NCBI GenBank assembly: GCA_002050365.1
Contig: MWYZ01000085.1
Span: 62,001 to 126,000, forward strand
DNA: 64,000 nucleotides
Direction of reading: 5' to 3'
From: Acidobacteria bacterium 28-1
GTDB taxonomy: Bacteria > Acidobacteriota > Blastocatellia > Pyrinomonadales > Pyrinomonadaceae
Shown: one piece after another, positions 15,885-20,695 of the stretch
Layout: every line of letters starts with the position of its first letter
Position numbering within the stretch: position 1 is the stretch's first letter
Position numbers and translations under genes: made by a program
The notes under the pieces: generated by a model
What the model saw: only the letters and a program-made list of their open reading frames with translations
What the model was told of the DNA's origin: nothing
The model's database searches: none

Positions 15885-16823
15885 ATGAAACCTTTTCTAA
15901 AATGGGCTGGCGGAAAAACACAATTGATTGCCGAAATCGAACGAAACCTTCCACCGTTGGTTTTGTCCGGTAAATTCACTTATGTCGAACCGTTTGTTGG
16001 AAGCGGCGCGGTTTTATTTTGGTTAATAAAGAAATTTCTGAATATGGATAAAGCTATTATCAATGATGTTAATTCAGATTTAATAAATACATATAAAACA
16101 ATAAAATCAAAACCAAAAAATTTAATTTCAATTCTTAAGGAATTTCAAAACGAATATCACGGTTTGCTAAACAAAGAAGAACAAAAGAAAGAATACTATT
16201 ATCAAAAACGAGATTTATACAACAGCAGAAATACCGACAAAATCACTCAAGCGGCTTTATTTGTCTTCCTAAATCGAACTTGCTTTAACGGATTGTATCG
16301 CGTCAATCGAAGCAATTTATTTAATGTTCCAATGGGAAGCTACAAGTTGCCAATGATTTGCGACGAACAAAATATTTTAGCTGTCAGCAACGCACTACAA
16401 AATGTAGAAATTCTCAACAGCGATTTTGAGAAAACTTTGCCTTATGCAAGCGAAAACTCTTTTTTCTATCTCGACCCGCCATATAAACCTTTGAGCGTAA
16501 CTTCGAGTTTTAATTCTTATGCGAAAAATGAGTTTGATGATAATGAGCAAATTAGATTAAAAGATTTCTGCGTTGACCTTCACGCACGCGGAAGTAAATG
16601 GCTACTGAGCAATTCAGATGTTCAGCAGGATGATTTCTTCCATAGAATTTACGAGAGTTTTAATATTAAACAAGTAAAAGCAAAAAGAGTTATTAATTCA
16701 AAGCCGGAAAAAAGAGGTGAGTTGGACGAACTTTTGATAACTAATTATAAATTGAACGAGTTTCATTTAGCTGGAAACACACAACAGAAATTATGGAACG
16801 AGCAGACGCGATTAAACGGATAA
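15885..16823 (+). CDS. Dam-type adenine-N6 DNA methyltransferase
   Basis: 312 aa from the ATG at 15885; the frame is open further upstream but the canonical N-terminus starts here. It is an alpha-class adenine methylase of the DpnM/Dam type. Motif X is FLKWAGGK (4-11), motif I VEPFVGSGAV (34-43), and motif IV DPPY (197-200). The family commonly modifies GATC, which is the likely target. The last 31 nt overlap the MutH-like nuclease gene. The DNA is clearly AT-richer than the housekeeping genes beside it, suggesting transfer of the whole island. Confidence 0.9.
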   Translation: MKPFLKWAGGKTQLIAEIERNLPPLVLSGKFTYVEPFVGSGAVLFWLIKKFLNMDKAIINDVNSDLINTYKTIKSKPKNLISILKEFQNEYHGLLNKEEQKKEYYYQKRDLYNSRNTDKITQAALFVFLNRTCFNGLYRVNRSNLFNVPMGSYKLPMICDEQNILAVSNALQNVEILNSDFEKTLPYASENSFFYLDPPYKPLSVTSSFNSYAKNEFDDNEQIRLKDFCVDLHARGSKWLLSNSDVQQDDFFHRIYESFNIKQVKAKRVINSKPEKRGELDELLITNYKLNEFHLAGNTQQKLWNEQTRLNG

Positions 16824-17416
16824 CGCAGCTTGTTGGCAAAGATTTGCGACCAATGGCTGATGAGTTAGAAATAACTGTTTGGAAAGGCGATAAGAAAAAC
16901 AAGGGTTGGGTTGGTCATGTAATTGAACGGTATTTAGGGCTTCCTATTAATTCGTCCCAATCTCCGAATTTTGGAAGCTGGGAGTTAAAAGTTATCCCGT
17001 TAAAAAGAAATGCCAAAGGTCAGTTAGTAGTTAAAGAAACAATGGCAATAACTATGATTGATCCCTATAACGTCGCTCGCACACCATTTGAAGAAAGCCA
17101 TTTGCTCGCCAAAATGAGAAAAGCTGTTATTGTTGCTCGCGTTTTTGAAAGTCAAGTTGAAGCAAGTTCTTTGCTTCATTCTGTAACTGATTTTGATTTA
17201 GGTGATAGCGAAATTTACGAACAGGTAAAAGCAGATTACGAGTTGGTCAGAGATGCAATCAGCACAAAAGGATTTAGTTCTCTTACAGGTAGCATGGGCG
17301 TGTTAGTCCAGCCTCGAACGAAAGGACCTGGTCATGGCTCAACTTCACGAGCCTTTTATGCAAGAACGAAATTTGTGGCTGAAATTATCAAGGACGCGAT
17401 TAAAAAAGTCGAATAA
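16793..17416 (+). CDS. MutH/Sau3AI-type restriction endonuclease
   Basis: 207 aa with the MutH/Sau3AI fold signature. GDKKNKGWVGHVIERYLGL (about 32-50) is followed by the active-site strand PNFGSWELKVIPLK (58-71) and KETMAITMIDP (about 82-92). Glu64 and Lys66 supply the E-x-K pair. The acidic residue expected in PD-(D/E)xK enzymes just before them is Asn59 here. Paired with Dam and DpnA-like methylases it is the probable GATC endonuclease of a type II system. Chromosomal MutH would not sit between two methylases. The gene overlaps the Dam-type gene by 31 nt. Confidence 0.85.
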   Translation: MERADAIKRITQLVGKDLRPMADELEITVWKGDKKNKGWVGHVIERYLGLPINSSQSPNFGSWELKVIPLKRNAKGQLVVKETMAITMIDPYNVARTPFEESHLLAKMRKAVIVARVFESQVEASSLLHSVTDFDLGDSEIYEQVKADYELVRDAISTKGFSSLTGSMGVLVQPRTKGPGHGSTSRAFYARTKFVAEIIKDAIKKVE

Positions 17417-17433
17417 ATACACTTTCAAAAATT

Positions 17434-17646
17434 TCACATTTTCATTAATTCAGAAATACTAATCTCAAAATTCTTCGCTAAAACCTCGATGTTCAGGAGT
17501 GACGGATTCCGCTCGCCTCGCTCAATCATTCCAATATAGTTTTTATGCAAGCCTGAAATATCGGCAAGTTGTTGCTGTGTCAAATTTCTTTCCGTTCGCA
17601 ATTCCCTGACTCTTTTACCGAATTTTTTTAAAATAGAATCTTCCAT
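17434..17646 (-). CDS. XRE-family controller (C) protein
   Basis: 70 aa from the ATG at 17646 (an in-frame GTG at 17664 is possible). It is a single HTH domain, RVRELRTERNLTQQQLADIS followed by KNYIGMIERGERNPSLLNIEVLA, typical of C proteins that time expression of restriction and modification genes. It is transcribed toward the nuclease gene and divergent from the small gene at 17717. The 70-bp gap between the divergent starts carries a palindrome (17661-17673) that could be its operator. Confidence 0.85.
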   Translation of the reverse strand: MEDSILKKFGKRVRELRTERNLTQQQLADISGLHKNYIGMIERGERNPSLLNIEVLAKNFEISISELMKM

Positions 17647-17660
17647 TATGCTTTCAAAAG

Positions 17661-17673
17661 ACACTTATTGTGT
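17661..17673. promoter_or_regulatory. Candidate C-protein operator
   Basis: Hyphenated palindrome ACAC-TTATT-GTGT in the short divergent gap between the controller gene and the gene at 17717, overlapping a TAAAAT sequence (17676-17681) that could be a -10 element for the rightward promoter. Position and symmetry are as expected of a C-box. The assignment is inference only. Confidence 0.4.
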
Positions 17674-17716
17674 GTTAAAATTTATTTCAAATTCATCTCG
17701 AAAAGGAAATAAACTT

Positions 17717-17956
17717 ATGCAACAGAATGTTTTTATAGTAGAGAAAGATTCAATCAATTTAAACTTAACCAAAGAAGAAAATATTTTAATCGAAAGAAAT
17801 TATCTCGTGAATTTTATGAGAATGTGCGCTGATAATTTTGACATACGGAAAGAGAAACTTTATATTCCCGACGGCTGTGAGAAATACGGCTTTGCCGAAG
17901 GCAAACACAATATCGGACAAATGATGCGCTTTTTTGCCGATATGCTTGAAGATTGA
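17717..17956 (+). CDS. Hypothetical protein in R-M island
   Basis: 79 aa from the ATG at 17717, preceded by AAAGGAAA. No family recognised. Acidic and Asn/Met-rich with two Cys (near residues 38 and 54). The C-terminal half (GFAEGKHNIGQMMRFFADMLED) is predicted helical. It is the first gene rightward of the controller and leads a run of three closely spaced genes ending in the DpnA-like methylase. An accessory or regulatory role in the restriction system is possible but unsupported. Confidence 0.6.
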   Translation: MQQNVFIVEKDSINLNLTKEENILIERNYLVNFMRMCADNFDIRKEKLYIPDGCEKYGFAEGKHNIGQMMRFFADMLED

Positions 17957-17970
17957 GAAAAGAGGCAACT

Positions 17971-18273
17971 ATGAAAACAAAAACACTTGCCAGAAAAGCA
18001 AATTCAAGACCAATTTGTGTTTTTCTTAAACCTTGTGTTGAAAAGCAGGACTTAAATTATTTTGAACAGTTCACGGGAACGCCGGAACAAATTTTGAATC
18101 GTTCAATGGAAATAATTCACGGTTTGAAAACAATCTTTAAAAATGCTGATTTCTCGGTAAAAATAGAAAATACAAACTTAACTCAATCACTTTATCTCGA
18201 CTCTGATATTTTGTTTGACGAAAACTTTAATGAAATTGGAAGCGTTGAAGATTACATTTATTTTCAGAAATGA
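17971..18273 (+). CDS. Hypothetical protein in R-M island
   Basis: 100 aa from the ATG at 17971, with GAGG 6 nt upstream. No family recognised. The N-terminus is basic (KTKTLARKANSRP), with two Cys near residues 16 and 22. The C-terminal half is acidic and probably forms an alpha-beta fold. Its stop overlaps the start of the DpnA-like methylase in an ATGA, so the two are translationally coupled. Confidence 0.6.
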   Translation: MKTKTLARKANSRPICVFLKPCVEKQDLNYFEQFTGTPEQILNRSMEIIHGLKTIFKNADFSVKIENTNLTQSLYLDSDILFDENFNEIGSVEDYIYFQK

Positions 18274-19127
18274 CACCTTACTTTAAATCTGACGATAAAA
18301 ATTTCACCTTGCTTCGCGGCGATTCAATCGAACTTTTGCCGCTGTTTGAGCATAAGTTCGACATGGTTTTCGCCGACCCACCTTACTTTCTTTCAAACAA
18401 TGGACTGACAATAAAAAACGGCAAAGTTTCGAGTGTTAATAAAGGCAAATGGGACGAATCGCCTGGAATTCATCAAATAAATGAATTCAACTTAAAATGG
18501 CTTTCGTTTGTCAGCGACAAGATGAACGACAACGCGACGATTTGGATAAGTGGAACAATGCACAATATTTTTTCGATTGGACAAATGTTGACGCTTTTAA
18601 ATTTTAAGATTCTCAATGTCATCACCTGGCAAAAAACAAATCCGCCGCCGAGTTGGGCAAAGCGTTCATTTACACATTCAACCGAACAAATCATTTGGGC
18701 GCGAAAATCTGAAAAAGCTCCGCATTATTATAATTACGATTTTATGTATAAAATCAATGGCGACCAACAGATGAAAGACGTTTGGACGCTTCCGGCAATT
18801 CAAAAGTGGGAAAAAACTTGCGGAAAACATCCGACACAAAAACCGCTTTCAGTTTTAACGCGCATAATTTTAGCTTCAACAAAACCGAATGCTTGGATTT
18901 TAGACCCGTTTACAGGAGGAAGCACGACAGGCATTGCAGGCAATTTATTAAACAGAAGATTTTTAGGGATTGATTTAGAAGAAGAATATTTACAGCTTAG
19001 TAAAAAACGAAAAATAGAAATTGAAAATCCCTTGACACAAAAACAGTTTCGGGAAAGTATAAACGGCTTTAAAGATAAAAATGAATTATCATATTTTTTA
19101 CAAAATGAATCTCGACAAACAAATTGA
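18270..19127 (+). CDS. DpnA-like beta-class DNA methyltransferase
   Basis: 285 aa. Motif IV DPPYFLSNNG (36-45) precedes the SAM-binding motif DPFTGGSTTG (212-221), the order of beta-class methylases. KHPTQKP (186-192) is the typical pre-motif. The sequence resembles the second methylase of DpnII/MboI-type systems (DpnA, M.MboIB), which can methylate single-stranded GATC DNA. With the Dam-type enzyme, this would protect incoming or newly replicated DNA. It is the last gene of the island and overlaps the preceding gene by 4 nt. Confidence 0.9.
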   Translation: MTPYFKSDDKNFTLLRGDSIELLPLFEHKFDMVFADPPYFLSNNGLTIKNGKVSSVNKGKWDESPGIHQINEFNLKWLSFVSDKMNDNATIWISGTMHNIFSIGQMLTLLNFKILNVITWQKTNPPPSWAKRSFTHSTEQIIWARKSEKAPHYYNYDFMYKINGDQQMKDVWTLPAIQKWEKTCGKHPTQKPLSVLTRIILASTKPNAWILDPFTGGSTTGIAGNLLNRRFLGIDLEEEYLQLSKKRKIEIENPLTQKQFRESINGFKDKNELSYFLQNESRQTN

Positions 19128-19223: not shown

Positions 19224-20243
19224 ATGAAAAAAATAACGCTTATTTTCGTTTTGTTACTTTCATTTTCTCAAACGATTTCGGCGCAGGAAAAAGCGTCGTT
19301 GCCGGAAATTGACCGCATTCGCATCGCCGAAGCCTTTCGAATCGGTGAAAAAATCAGTGATAAAGTTTGGAAAGGTTGGAGCAGTGCGCCGTGGGCTTTG
19401 CTTTTGGTGACGCCGAAAGATGAATTTCTGATTCGTCATCGAAAACCGTCGGGTGATTTTCGATTAATCGGTTACGATTCGCTGCTCAAAAGCGATGTTT
19501 ACACTCGCCCGCGAAAATTATCGCCAAAACTGTTAGCCACTTTTCCGGCGGCGGGCGACGCAACGCCCGTTATTGTCGTTGGACAAGCGGAAAATACAGA
19601 CGCAAAAACTTCTACGCCGTGGGTTTTTGTCGTTTTGCACGAGCATTTTCATCAGCTTCAATATTCGCAGCCCGATTATTACGCCGATGTTGAAAAGTTG
19701 AACCTTTCGGGCGGCGACCGGACAGGAATGTGGATGATTAACTATCAATTTCCTTACAGCCAAAAAGAGGTCGGCGACCAATTCGGTTCGTTAAGCAAAT
19801 TATTAGTTGAAACTTACAACGCTAAAAATAAATCTCAACGAAGCAAGAAACTGAATGAATATCTGAGCGAGCGCAAAAAGTTTGAATCAATCTTAAAAAC
19901 AGATGACCGTCGTTATTTGTCGTTTCAATTGTGGCAGGAAGGAATTGCCCGCTATGTTCAATATAAAACGGCTCAAACTGCCGCTAAAAAATATAAGCCA
20001 AGCAAAGAATTTCGAGCCTTAAAAGATTTCACGCCTATTGATAAAGAGGCAGATAATTTGCTGCGTTTAACTTTCAACGAATTAAAAGAAGTTAATCTGT
20101 CAAAATCTCAACGAATCGCGTTTTATCCGTTCGGCGCGATTGAAGGACTTTTGTTAGATAAAGTTAATCCAAACTGGAAAAAAAGGTATTTAGCGGATAA
20201 GTTTAGTTTAGACGATTATTTCCGAAATGAGGTAAACGAATGA
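19224..20243 (+). CDS. Putative secreted zinc metallopeptidase (gluzincin-like)
   Basis: 339 aa with a signal peptide (MKKITLIFVLLLSFSQTISAQ). No named family comes to mind, but the sequence holds a zincin motif HEHFH (139-143) preceded by hydrophobic WVFVVL. About 95 residues later comes WQEGIARYVQ (238-247). HExxH followed by a distant E-G-x-A-R-Y is the pattern of gluzincins, in which that Glu is the third zinc ligand. This suggests a periplasmic or secreted metalloprotease; activity is inferred. The stop overlaps the peroxiredoxin start (ATGA), so they are co-transcribed. Confidence 0.65.
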   Translation: MKKITLIFVLLLSFSQTISAQEKASLPEIDRIRIAEAFRIGEKISDKVWKGWSSAPWALLLVTPKDEFLIRHRKPSGDFRLIGYDSLLKSDVYTRPRKLSPKLLATFPAAGDATPVIVVGQAENTDAKTSTPWVFVVLHEHFHQLQYSQPDYYADVEKLNLSGGDRTGMWMINYQFPYSQKEVGDQFGSLSKLLVETYNAKNKSQRSKKLNEYLSERKKFESILKTDDRRYLSFQLWQEGIARYVQYKTAQTAAKKYKPSKEFRALKDFTPIDKEADNLLRLTFNELKEVNLSKSQRIAFYPFGAIEGLLLDKVNPNWKKRYLADKFSLDDYFRNEVNE

Positions 20244-20695
20244 GAATTGGTGAAAACGCGCCAGATTTTACGTTGAAAGACGGTGACGGAAACGATTGGA
20301 AACTATCCGAACGGCGCGGAAAAACGGTTGTTCTGCTTTTCTATCCGGGCGATAACACGCCGGTTTGCACAAAACAGATGTGTTCCGTCAGAGATAATTG
20401 GGAAGATTACGCGAAAACCGGCGCGGAAGTCGTCGGCATTTCGACCGATTCCGCCGCATCGCACAAAGATTTTTCCCAGAAATATGATTTGCCGCTGACG
20501 CTTTTGTCTGACGAAAAGGGCGAAGTCGTCGAAAAATTCAACGTCAAATCTTGGCTTCCCGGACGCTCGGCGCGGGCGGTCGTCGTTGTTGATAAAAACG
20601 GCGTTGTTCGACATCATCAAGTTCAATCGTTGAGCGTGTTTCGCCCGAAAGACGATGAAGTTTTGAAGGCAATCGGGCAAGCAAACGCCGCATAA
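20240..20695 (+). CDS. Peroxiredoxin, Bcp/PrxQ type
   Basis: 151-aa thiol peroxidase of the AhpC/TSA fold that reduces peroxides. The active site is YPGDNTPVCTKQMC, with peroxidatic Cys43 and the close resolving Cys48, spaced as in atypical two-Cys Bcp/PrxQ enzymes. Length is normal. It overlaps the putative metallopeptidase gene by 4 nt. Confidence 0.93.
   Translation: MRIGENAPDFTLKDGDGNDWKLSERRGKTVVLLFYPGDNTPVCTKQMCSVRDNWEDYAKTGAEVVGISTDSAASHKDFSQKYDLPLTLLSDEKGEVVEKFNVKSWLPGRSARAVVVVDKNGVVRHHQVQSLSVFRPKDDEVLKAIGQANAA

Follow-up and report, generated by a model that had tools for sequence, protein, structure and literature searches.

A six-gene cassette at positions 15885-19127 of the DNA analysed here is very probably a horizontally acquired type II restriction-modification (RM) system for GATC. 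The DNA is a 64,000-nucleotide stretch ("the window") of contig MWYZ01000085.1 (C29 in our numbering), part of the 4.15-Mb draft genome of Acidobacteria bacterium 28-1. The cassette encodes two adenine methylases (M1 and M2), a nuclease of the MutH/Sau3AI family (R), a control-type regulator (C) and two small proteins (U1 and U2). It joins the DpnII methylase pair to a MutH-type nuclease in what is probably a GATC system: real and recurrent, and a known kind of system in a new arrangement.

Five of the genes lie on the forward strand: M1 (15885-16823), R (16793-17416), U1 (17717-17956), U2 (17971-18273) and M2 (18270-19127), with the likely starts of U1 and U2 corrected to 17717 and 17971. C (17434-17646) lies between R and U1 on the reverse strand, convergent to R and divergent from U1-U2-M2, so the cassette is not a single operon. 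The genes are tightly packed, with overlaps of 31 nt (M1/R) and 4 nt (U2/M2) and gaps of 17 nt (R-C) and 14 nt (U1-U2). GC content is 35.3%, against 44.6% for the window, and the ATG of M1 is 22 nt downstream of the stop (15862) of a radical-SAM gene.

M1 (312 aa) is a Dam/DpnM-type (alpha, D12) N6-adenine methyltransferase with predicted GATC specificity. It scores 303 bits against the NCBIfam model TIGR00571 dam (cut-off 115), matches Pfam D12 and has DpnM (2dpm, E 2.3e-53) as its top PDB match. Its DPPY motif is at 197, and its loop FNGLYRVN..FNVP resembles those of plasmid DpnII-type Dams. The nearest of the sampled Dams is in a Bacteroidales contig (locus L075, 60%), followed by the Dams of two Psychrobacter plasmids (~52%). 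M2 (285 aa; DPPY at 36; 173.8 bits against Pfam N6_N4_Mtase) is a DpnA-type (beta) N6-adenine methyltransferase, also predicted to recognise GATC and possibly active on single strands. It is 54.4% identical to a DpnA-type methylase of a Staphylococcus plasmid and 51.4% identical to the second methylase of the Lactococcus plasmid pSRQ700, both of which sit within dam-methylase-nuclease cassettes.

R is a single-domain protein of 207 aa. It scores 47.9 bits against Pfam MutH (cut-off 23), while its NCBIfam scores for Sau3AI (63.8 bits) and MutH (61.5 bits) fall far short of the equivalog cut-offs of 300 and 243; with this length and score, R falls outside the two-domain Sau3AI-type nucleases. 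PDB searches match it to MutH (E 4.4e-9) and Sau3AI (E 7.1e-6), and a profile search matches it to the 509-aa Sau3AI chain 4pxg (E 9.2e-14). The structure predicted from a 54-row alignment (A1) is one MutH-fold domain (mean pLDDT 89.8), which aligns to the MutH-DNA structure over 197 residues (Z 20.3, rmsd 2.6) and to the Sau3AI N-domain with Z 19.0; MvaI/BcnI reach only Z 7.2-7.7, a level graded uncertain by the tool. A tblastn search of the window with three DpnII/MboI-type nucleases found no such gene (best E 0.73). The sequence-only reading of this DNA had named a Dam-type and a DpnA-like methylase, a nuclease of the MutH/Sau3AI fold instead of the DpnII/MboI kind, a C protein and two unknown genes, in compact, AT-rich DNA inserted 22 nt after the radical-SAM stop, and our results agree with it on each of these points.

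Most of the MutH residues that matter for site contact and catalysis can be mapped onto R. MutH E56, E77, K79 and K116 correspond to R E45, E64, K66 and K107, and MutH R184, K186, F211 and Y212 to R R175, K177, F188 and Y189; all eight are invariant in the 54 rows. From the printed alignment with E. coli MutH, K48 corresponds to R K37 and F94 to Ala85. According to the available part of PMC10940147, the MutH changes K48A, R184A and Y212S abolish activity. The exception is in the PNFGSWELK motif of R, where Asn59 takes the place of MutH Asp70. R therefore has Asn59-Glu64-Lys66 instead of the MutH set Asp70-Glu77-Lys79, with an Asn-x4-Glu-x-Lys spacing two residues shorter than in MutH. Asn occupies this position in 54/54 rows of A1 and in 78/81 rows of a wider alignment, the others being two Asp (L027 and L032, both RM-linked members of the family) and one gap (L040, a broken frame). 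A1 and the loci studied represent the top 80 of 235 stretches, so conservation is biased upward. As read from the alignments, R retains the site-contact residues of MutH but not its metal-binding Asp, and it is this conserved replacement of Asp by Asn that makes the system surprising. Block 51-60 of the model, which includes Asn59, has a mean pLDDT of 67, so no firm statement can be made about its geometry.

The relatives of R link it to GATC-type methylases. They were found in 235 genome-contig stretches, the 80 kept coming from many phyla; viral contigs gave 4 loci, phages one record (38%) and plasmids no relative at 1e-5. We scored partner methylases within 2 kb of R, and 79 of the 80 loci have one nearby: DpnA-type/beta in 63, Dam in 18 and both in 2. 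Of the 63, which include three loci whose methylases are just 39-42% like the references (L048, L057 and L078) and one broken locus (L055), 62 have no Dam in range and L075 has one. Dam is within range in 17 loci and just beyond it in L014, giving the total of 18; 11 Dam loci also have a distant beta-prime methylase and 5 have Dam alone. The remaining locus (L047) has neither kind, and its R is at a contig end.

L075 has dam, MutH-type nuclease and DpnA genes in the same order as the window, overlapping, and without C, U1 or U2, so the combination is not unique to the window. In a class-wide search around L075, 14/395 genomes matched R (the top match was the genome of L075 itself, and the second was 42% identical), and no further dam-MutH-DpnA cassette was found among the 395. 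Our searches of the open-access literature found no description of a system made up of Dam, DpnA and a MutH-type nuclease, which is no proof of absence.

Close relatives of the same methylase occur beside either kind of nuclease, and one locus holds both, so GATC cassettes appear to have exchanged their nuclease gene. Our Dam tree contains the 37 rows gathered in this analysis, including 18 Dams with a MutH-type neighbour and 10 with a DpnII-type neighbour (the Dam of L014 is labelled DpnII-type, though L014 also has a MutH-type nuclease). It requires 5 changes of nuclease, 4 of them forced by starred (well-supported) branches, and has a supported group (97/92) that unites the window and L075 (MutH-type) with the two Psychrobacter Dams (DpnII-type). 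Similarly, in a Fusobacterium locus (L103), Dam and a DpnII-type nuclease are accompanied by a beta-prime methylase that is 53% like the copy in L028, which sits beside Dam and a MutH-type R. In the Omnitrophota locus (L014:836-4555), Dam stands in a row with a DpnII-type nuclease, the remnant of a second Dam (72% identical in DNA to the first), DpnA and a MutH-type R, as if two GATC systems had merged by recombination of their cassettes. Partners also vary along the R tree, on which the Dam label and the DpnA label each need 10 changes, with 3 and 4 forced by starred branches; this is a quick tree whose support values are SH-aLRT only and whose MutH branch is very long, and it does not fix the position of the window.

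The insertion site is empty in relatives, which points to a recent insertion. The radical-SAM gene was found in 7/9 same-genus genomes searched (own included), and none of the five same-genus contigs that extend beyond it has M1, R or M2 there, so the window gained the cassette at this spot. In three of these five contigs AhpC (window positions 20240-20695) lies next to the radical-SAM gene, at a distance of 398 nt (L120), up to 10 nt (L123) or 822 nt (L124); in the other two (L121 and L122), the fetched stretch contains neither AhpC nor RM genes. R is also absent from all 8 other same-genus genomes searched. A further gene of the window, gene X (19224-20243; no Pfam match), overlaps the start of AhpC by 4 nt and is likewise missing between radical-SAM and AhpC in three same-genus contigs, while a partial 53% match to it occurs elsewhere in G010.

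Motif avoidance fits GATC targeting, most strongly for Dam-linked systems, without proving it. For loci of at least 6 kb, we compared observed/expected counts of the 16 four-base palindromes. Median GATC ratios were 0.26 around 12 Dam-linked R genes, 0.76 around 54 DpnA-linked and 0.93 around ten solitary relatives (L213-L222; range 0.84-1.02), with Mann-Whitney p values of 4e-4, 2e-3 and 4e-4 that ignore the relatedness of the loci. GATC is the most avoided of the 16 around Dam-linked R but not around solitary R. In single genomes, GATC is the lowest motif of G027, a genome of the same family which has DpnA and R (0.10), and G043, which has a solitary relative, shows no GATC avoidance. A 277-kb sample of the host genome has 123 GATC sites where 1049 are expected (0.12); GGCC (0.01), CATG (0.15) and GTAC (0.26) are avoided as well, and GANTC hardly (0.86). 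Strong avoidance of GGCC (0.00-0.16), GATC, CATG and GTAC is found across the genus, with or without the cassette.

Several points weigh against a working, GATC-specific restriction system. MutH D70A is nuclease-dead (PMC10940147, available part), so R, with Asn59 at the position of this essential Asp, may have weak activity, only nick DNA or be inactive. The same part of that paper reports that MutH F94A nicks DNA in all methylation states, so with Ala85 at the F94 position the methyl-sensitivity of R is not assured. A MutH-like protein from a protist mitochondrion was not toxic in E. coli, according to the available part of PMC8099122. Five same-genus genomes without R also avoid GATC (0.07-0.40), so this system cannot be the only source of the avoidance; all five have dam-family matches (above the cut-off in three), so other GATC systems may cause it. 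Lastly, DpnA-linked loci avoid GATC only mildly, as third of the 16 palindromes, with CTAG and GGCC lower. We therefore rejected host GATC avoidance as proof of specificity, because it is common to R-less relatives and to other motifs.

The first and third of these points bear on an alternative that we consider unlikely, although it is likelier than the other two: R may have lost its nuclease activity with the Asp-to-Asn change. The cassette would then serve methylation alone, with R confined to GATC binding, for instance as a regulator or in competition with other GATC nucleases. The prevalence of Asn where the MutH change to Ala is dead speaks for this, as does the non-toxic protist protein. 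However, neither E45, E64 and K66 nor any of the mapped contact residues varies in the 54 rows, and identity of 57-71% is held across many phyla, which is not expected of a decaying enzyme. The avoidance of GATC by Dam-linked R loci and the Asp in two RM-linked members also speak against this alternative.

Two further alternatives assign the genes to other functions. Dam and a MutH relative could work together in methyl-directed mismatch repair, as they do in E. coli, with no restriction, and R does have MutH as its best fold match and Dam as its neighbour. The sole MutL_C match in the host, however, is a MutL with the endonuclease-type motif DQHVAHER. Motifs of this kind are typical of MutL proteins that cut by themselves and are expected where MutH is not used, so Dam + MutH for repair is unlikely here. 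The lack of R in all 8 other same-genus genomes searched, the AT-rich DNA at an otherwise empty site, and the C-type regulator and DpnA (both parts of RM systems) make this explanation highly improbable. The other alternative is that M2 methylates a different motif, e.g., GANTC as CcrM does, and that a separate function was joined to the cassette by chance. CcrM ranks first among the PDB matches of M2 (E 1.3e-51), but the S. pneumoniae DpnA structure is not among these matches, and the CcrM NCBIfam model gives 204 bits, far under its cut-off of 830. In direct comparison, M2 is only 37% identical to a CcrM-like protein, against 51-54% to DpnA-type proteins, and we rejected M2 as a CcrM-like GANTC methylase for this reason. 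With the U2-M2 overlap, the recurring R-M2 neighbourhood and the near-absence of GANTC avoidance in the host, a chance association is very unlikely, and these comparisons support M2 being of true DpnA type, not merely CcrM-like.

For a GATC restriction-modification system, we propose the following mechanism. M1 would methylate the adenines of GATC in host double-stranded DNA, thereby protecting the host. M2 would be a second GATC methylase, perhaps protecting entering single-stranded DNA by analogy with S. pneumoniae DpnA, which methylates single-stranded DNA and shields incoming DNA in transformation (PMC3573125, available part). R, with its single domain, would bind unmethylated GATC through the MutH contact residues and cut it either by dimerising transiently on the DNA or strand after strand like its monomeric relative MvaI, for which such cutting is reported in the available part of PMC4081073. 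The common GATC specificity of nuclease and methylases in this scheme is one that we infer. C would probably balance the U1-U2-M2 operon against M1-R.

C (70 aa from its ATG, or 76 aa if it starts at the GTG at 17664) matches HTH_3 (1.2e-16), and its top PADLOC matches are "control protein" models (Control_protein, 2.1e-19). The divergent C/U1 intergenic region (17647-17716) contains a short inverted repeat, ACAC-TTATT-GTGT (17661-17673), which we read from the sequence as a candidate C operator. The repeat search listed no strong palindrome in this region, and promoter-like matches are close to the shuffle level (15 vs 9.2). A sigma-70-like, near-consensus promoter (TTGACA-17-TATATT) lies within U1 at 17838-17866, upstream of U2-M2.

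Homology does not assign a function to U1 (79 aa). Among 72,556 plasmid records it has two relatives, both on Psychrobacter plasmids (pYP14d and pA17P1) that also supply the two best plasmid matches of M1, and the proteins have the motif IPDGCE-x-x-GF-x-EG...F-x-ADMLE in common. On pYP14d the U1 gene is immediately upstream of dam and a DpnII-type nuclease; on pA17P1 it is downstream of repM, on the strand opposite dam and not touching it. Both come ~60 nt after a rep gene, so U1 may equally well be linked to the replicon, and we rejected a role for U1 based on dam linkage. Patterns for U1 and U2 had matches in viral contigs, of which none was confirmed; among 396 genomes of the phylum, U1 occurs only in its own. 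U2 (100 aa) has no match in Pfam, NCBIfam or PHROGs and no relative in viral contigs, plasmids or the 396 genomes beyond its own; we rejected it as a ZorB relative, given a single weak PADLOC match (E 2.6e-4, 53 residues).

Two groups within the R family have features of their own. In the Dam loci with a beta-prime methylase (L015, L016, L018, L028, L029, L038, L040, L042, L043, L052 and L069), this methylase is 60-74% identical to the L028 copy, and several of these loci have an extra uncharacterised gene of ~110-200 aa between Dam and the nuclease. The ten solitary relatives L213-L222 (51-59%) come from Pyrinomonadaceae-family genomes (G112, G043, G092, G118, G100, G116, G117, G115, G088 and G020) and form one clade within the RM-linked R tree. 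All have Asp at the MutH Asp70 position, and the 10-20 kb fetched around them contains none of the reference GATC-type methylases; in 8/10 of the genomes, a Dam-family gene above the cut-off is present at another place. These relatives are possibly a domesticated MutH-like enzyme.

A broader scenario is conceivable, though we regard it as doubtful. MutH-type restriction nucleases would be a class with a re-built active site (Asn for Asp) which moved repeatedly among partners (Dam, Dam + beta-prime, DpnA) and took the place of DpnII-type nucleases within their cassettes. In the window's own family, the solitary Asp branch would have parted from its neighbouring methylases and, with Dam encoded elsewhere in the genome, might act as a MutH that evolved independently. 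If these readings are true, GATC restriction systems are modular, with unrelated nucleases of the same target replacing each other beside the same methylases, and nature thereby provides a test of how a nuclease and its methylases are bound together. The conserved Asn for the catalytic Asp would be an added working variant of the PD-(D/E)XK active site. Through the solitary Pyrinomonadaceae branch with Asp, one could ask how a restriction enzyme might become a repair enzyme.

Among known systems, those of the DpnII/LlaDCHI/MboI type have the same methylase pair (M1 is 39-42% and M2 47-54% identical to plasmid copies, including pSRQ700), but they use their own DpnII/MboI-type nuclease and are ordered dam-dpnA-R, whereas the order here is dam-R-C-U1-U2-dpnA. 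The Psychrobacter plasmids have the similar Dam and the U1 relative, but with a DpnII-type nuclease and no DpnA-type gene annotated beside dam or the nuclease. Sau3AI has the nuclease family and fold of R in two domains instead of one; it is blocked by C-methylation (PMC4390886, available part), whereas both methylases of the cassette are adenine-type and none of the six proteins has a C5-methylase Pfam match. Kat-MutH of a katablepharid mitochondrial genome likewise pairs a MutH-type nuclease with a methylase predicted for GATC, but its partner is a C5 cytosine methylase and the authors found no activity (PMC8099122, available part). E. coli MutH resembles R over its full-length fold and in its contact residues, but has Asp70 and Phe94 where R has Asn59 and Ala85, and R is linked to methylases in a host whose MutL has its own endonuclease-type motif. 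The L075 cassette has the same three genes (M1 60%, R 64% and M2 72% over the 74 aa present before the contig ends), and the window's cassette differs from it by the C, U1 and U2 genes between R and M2.

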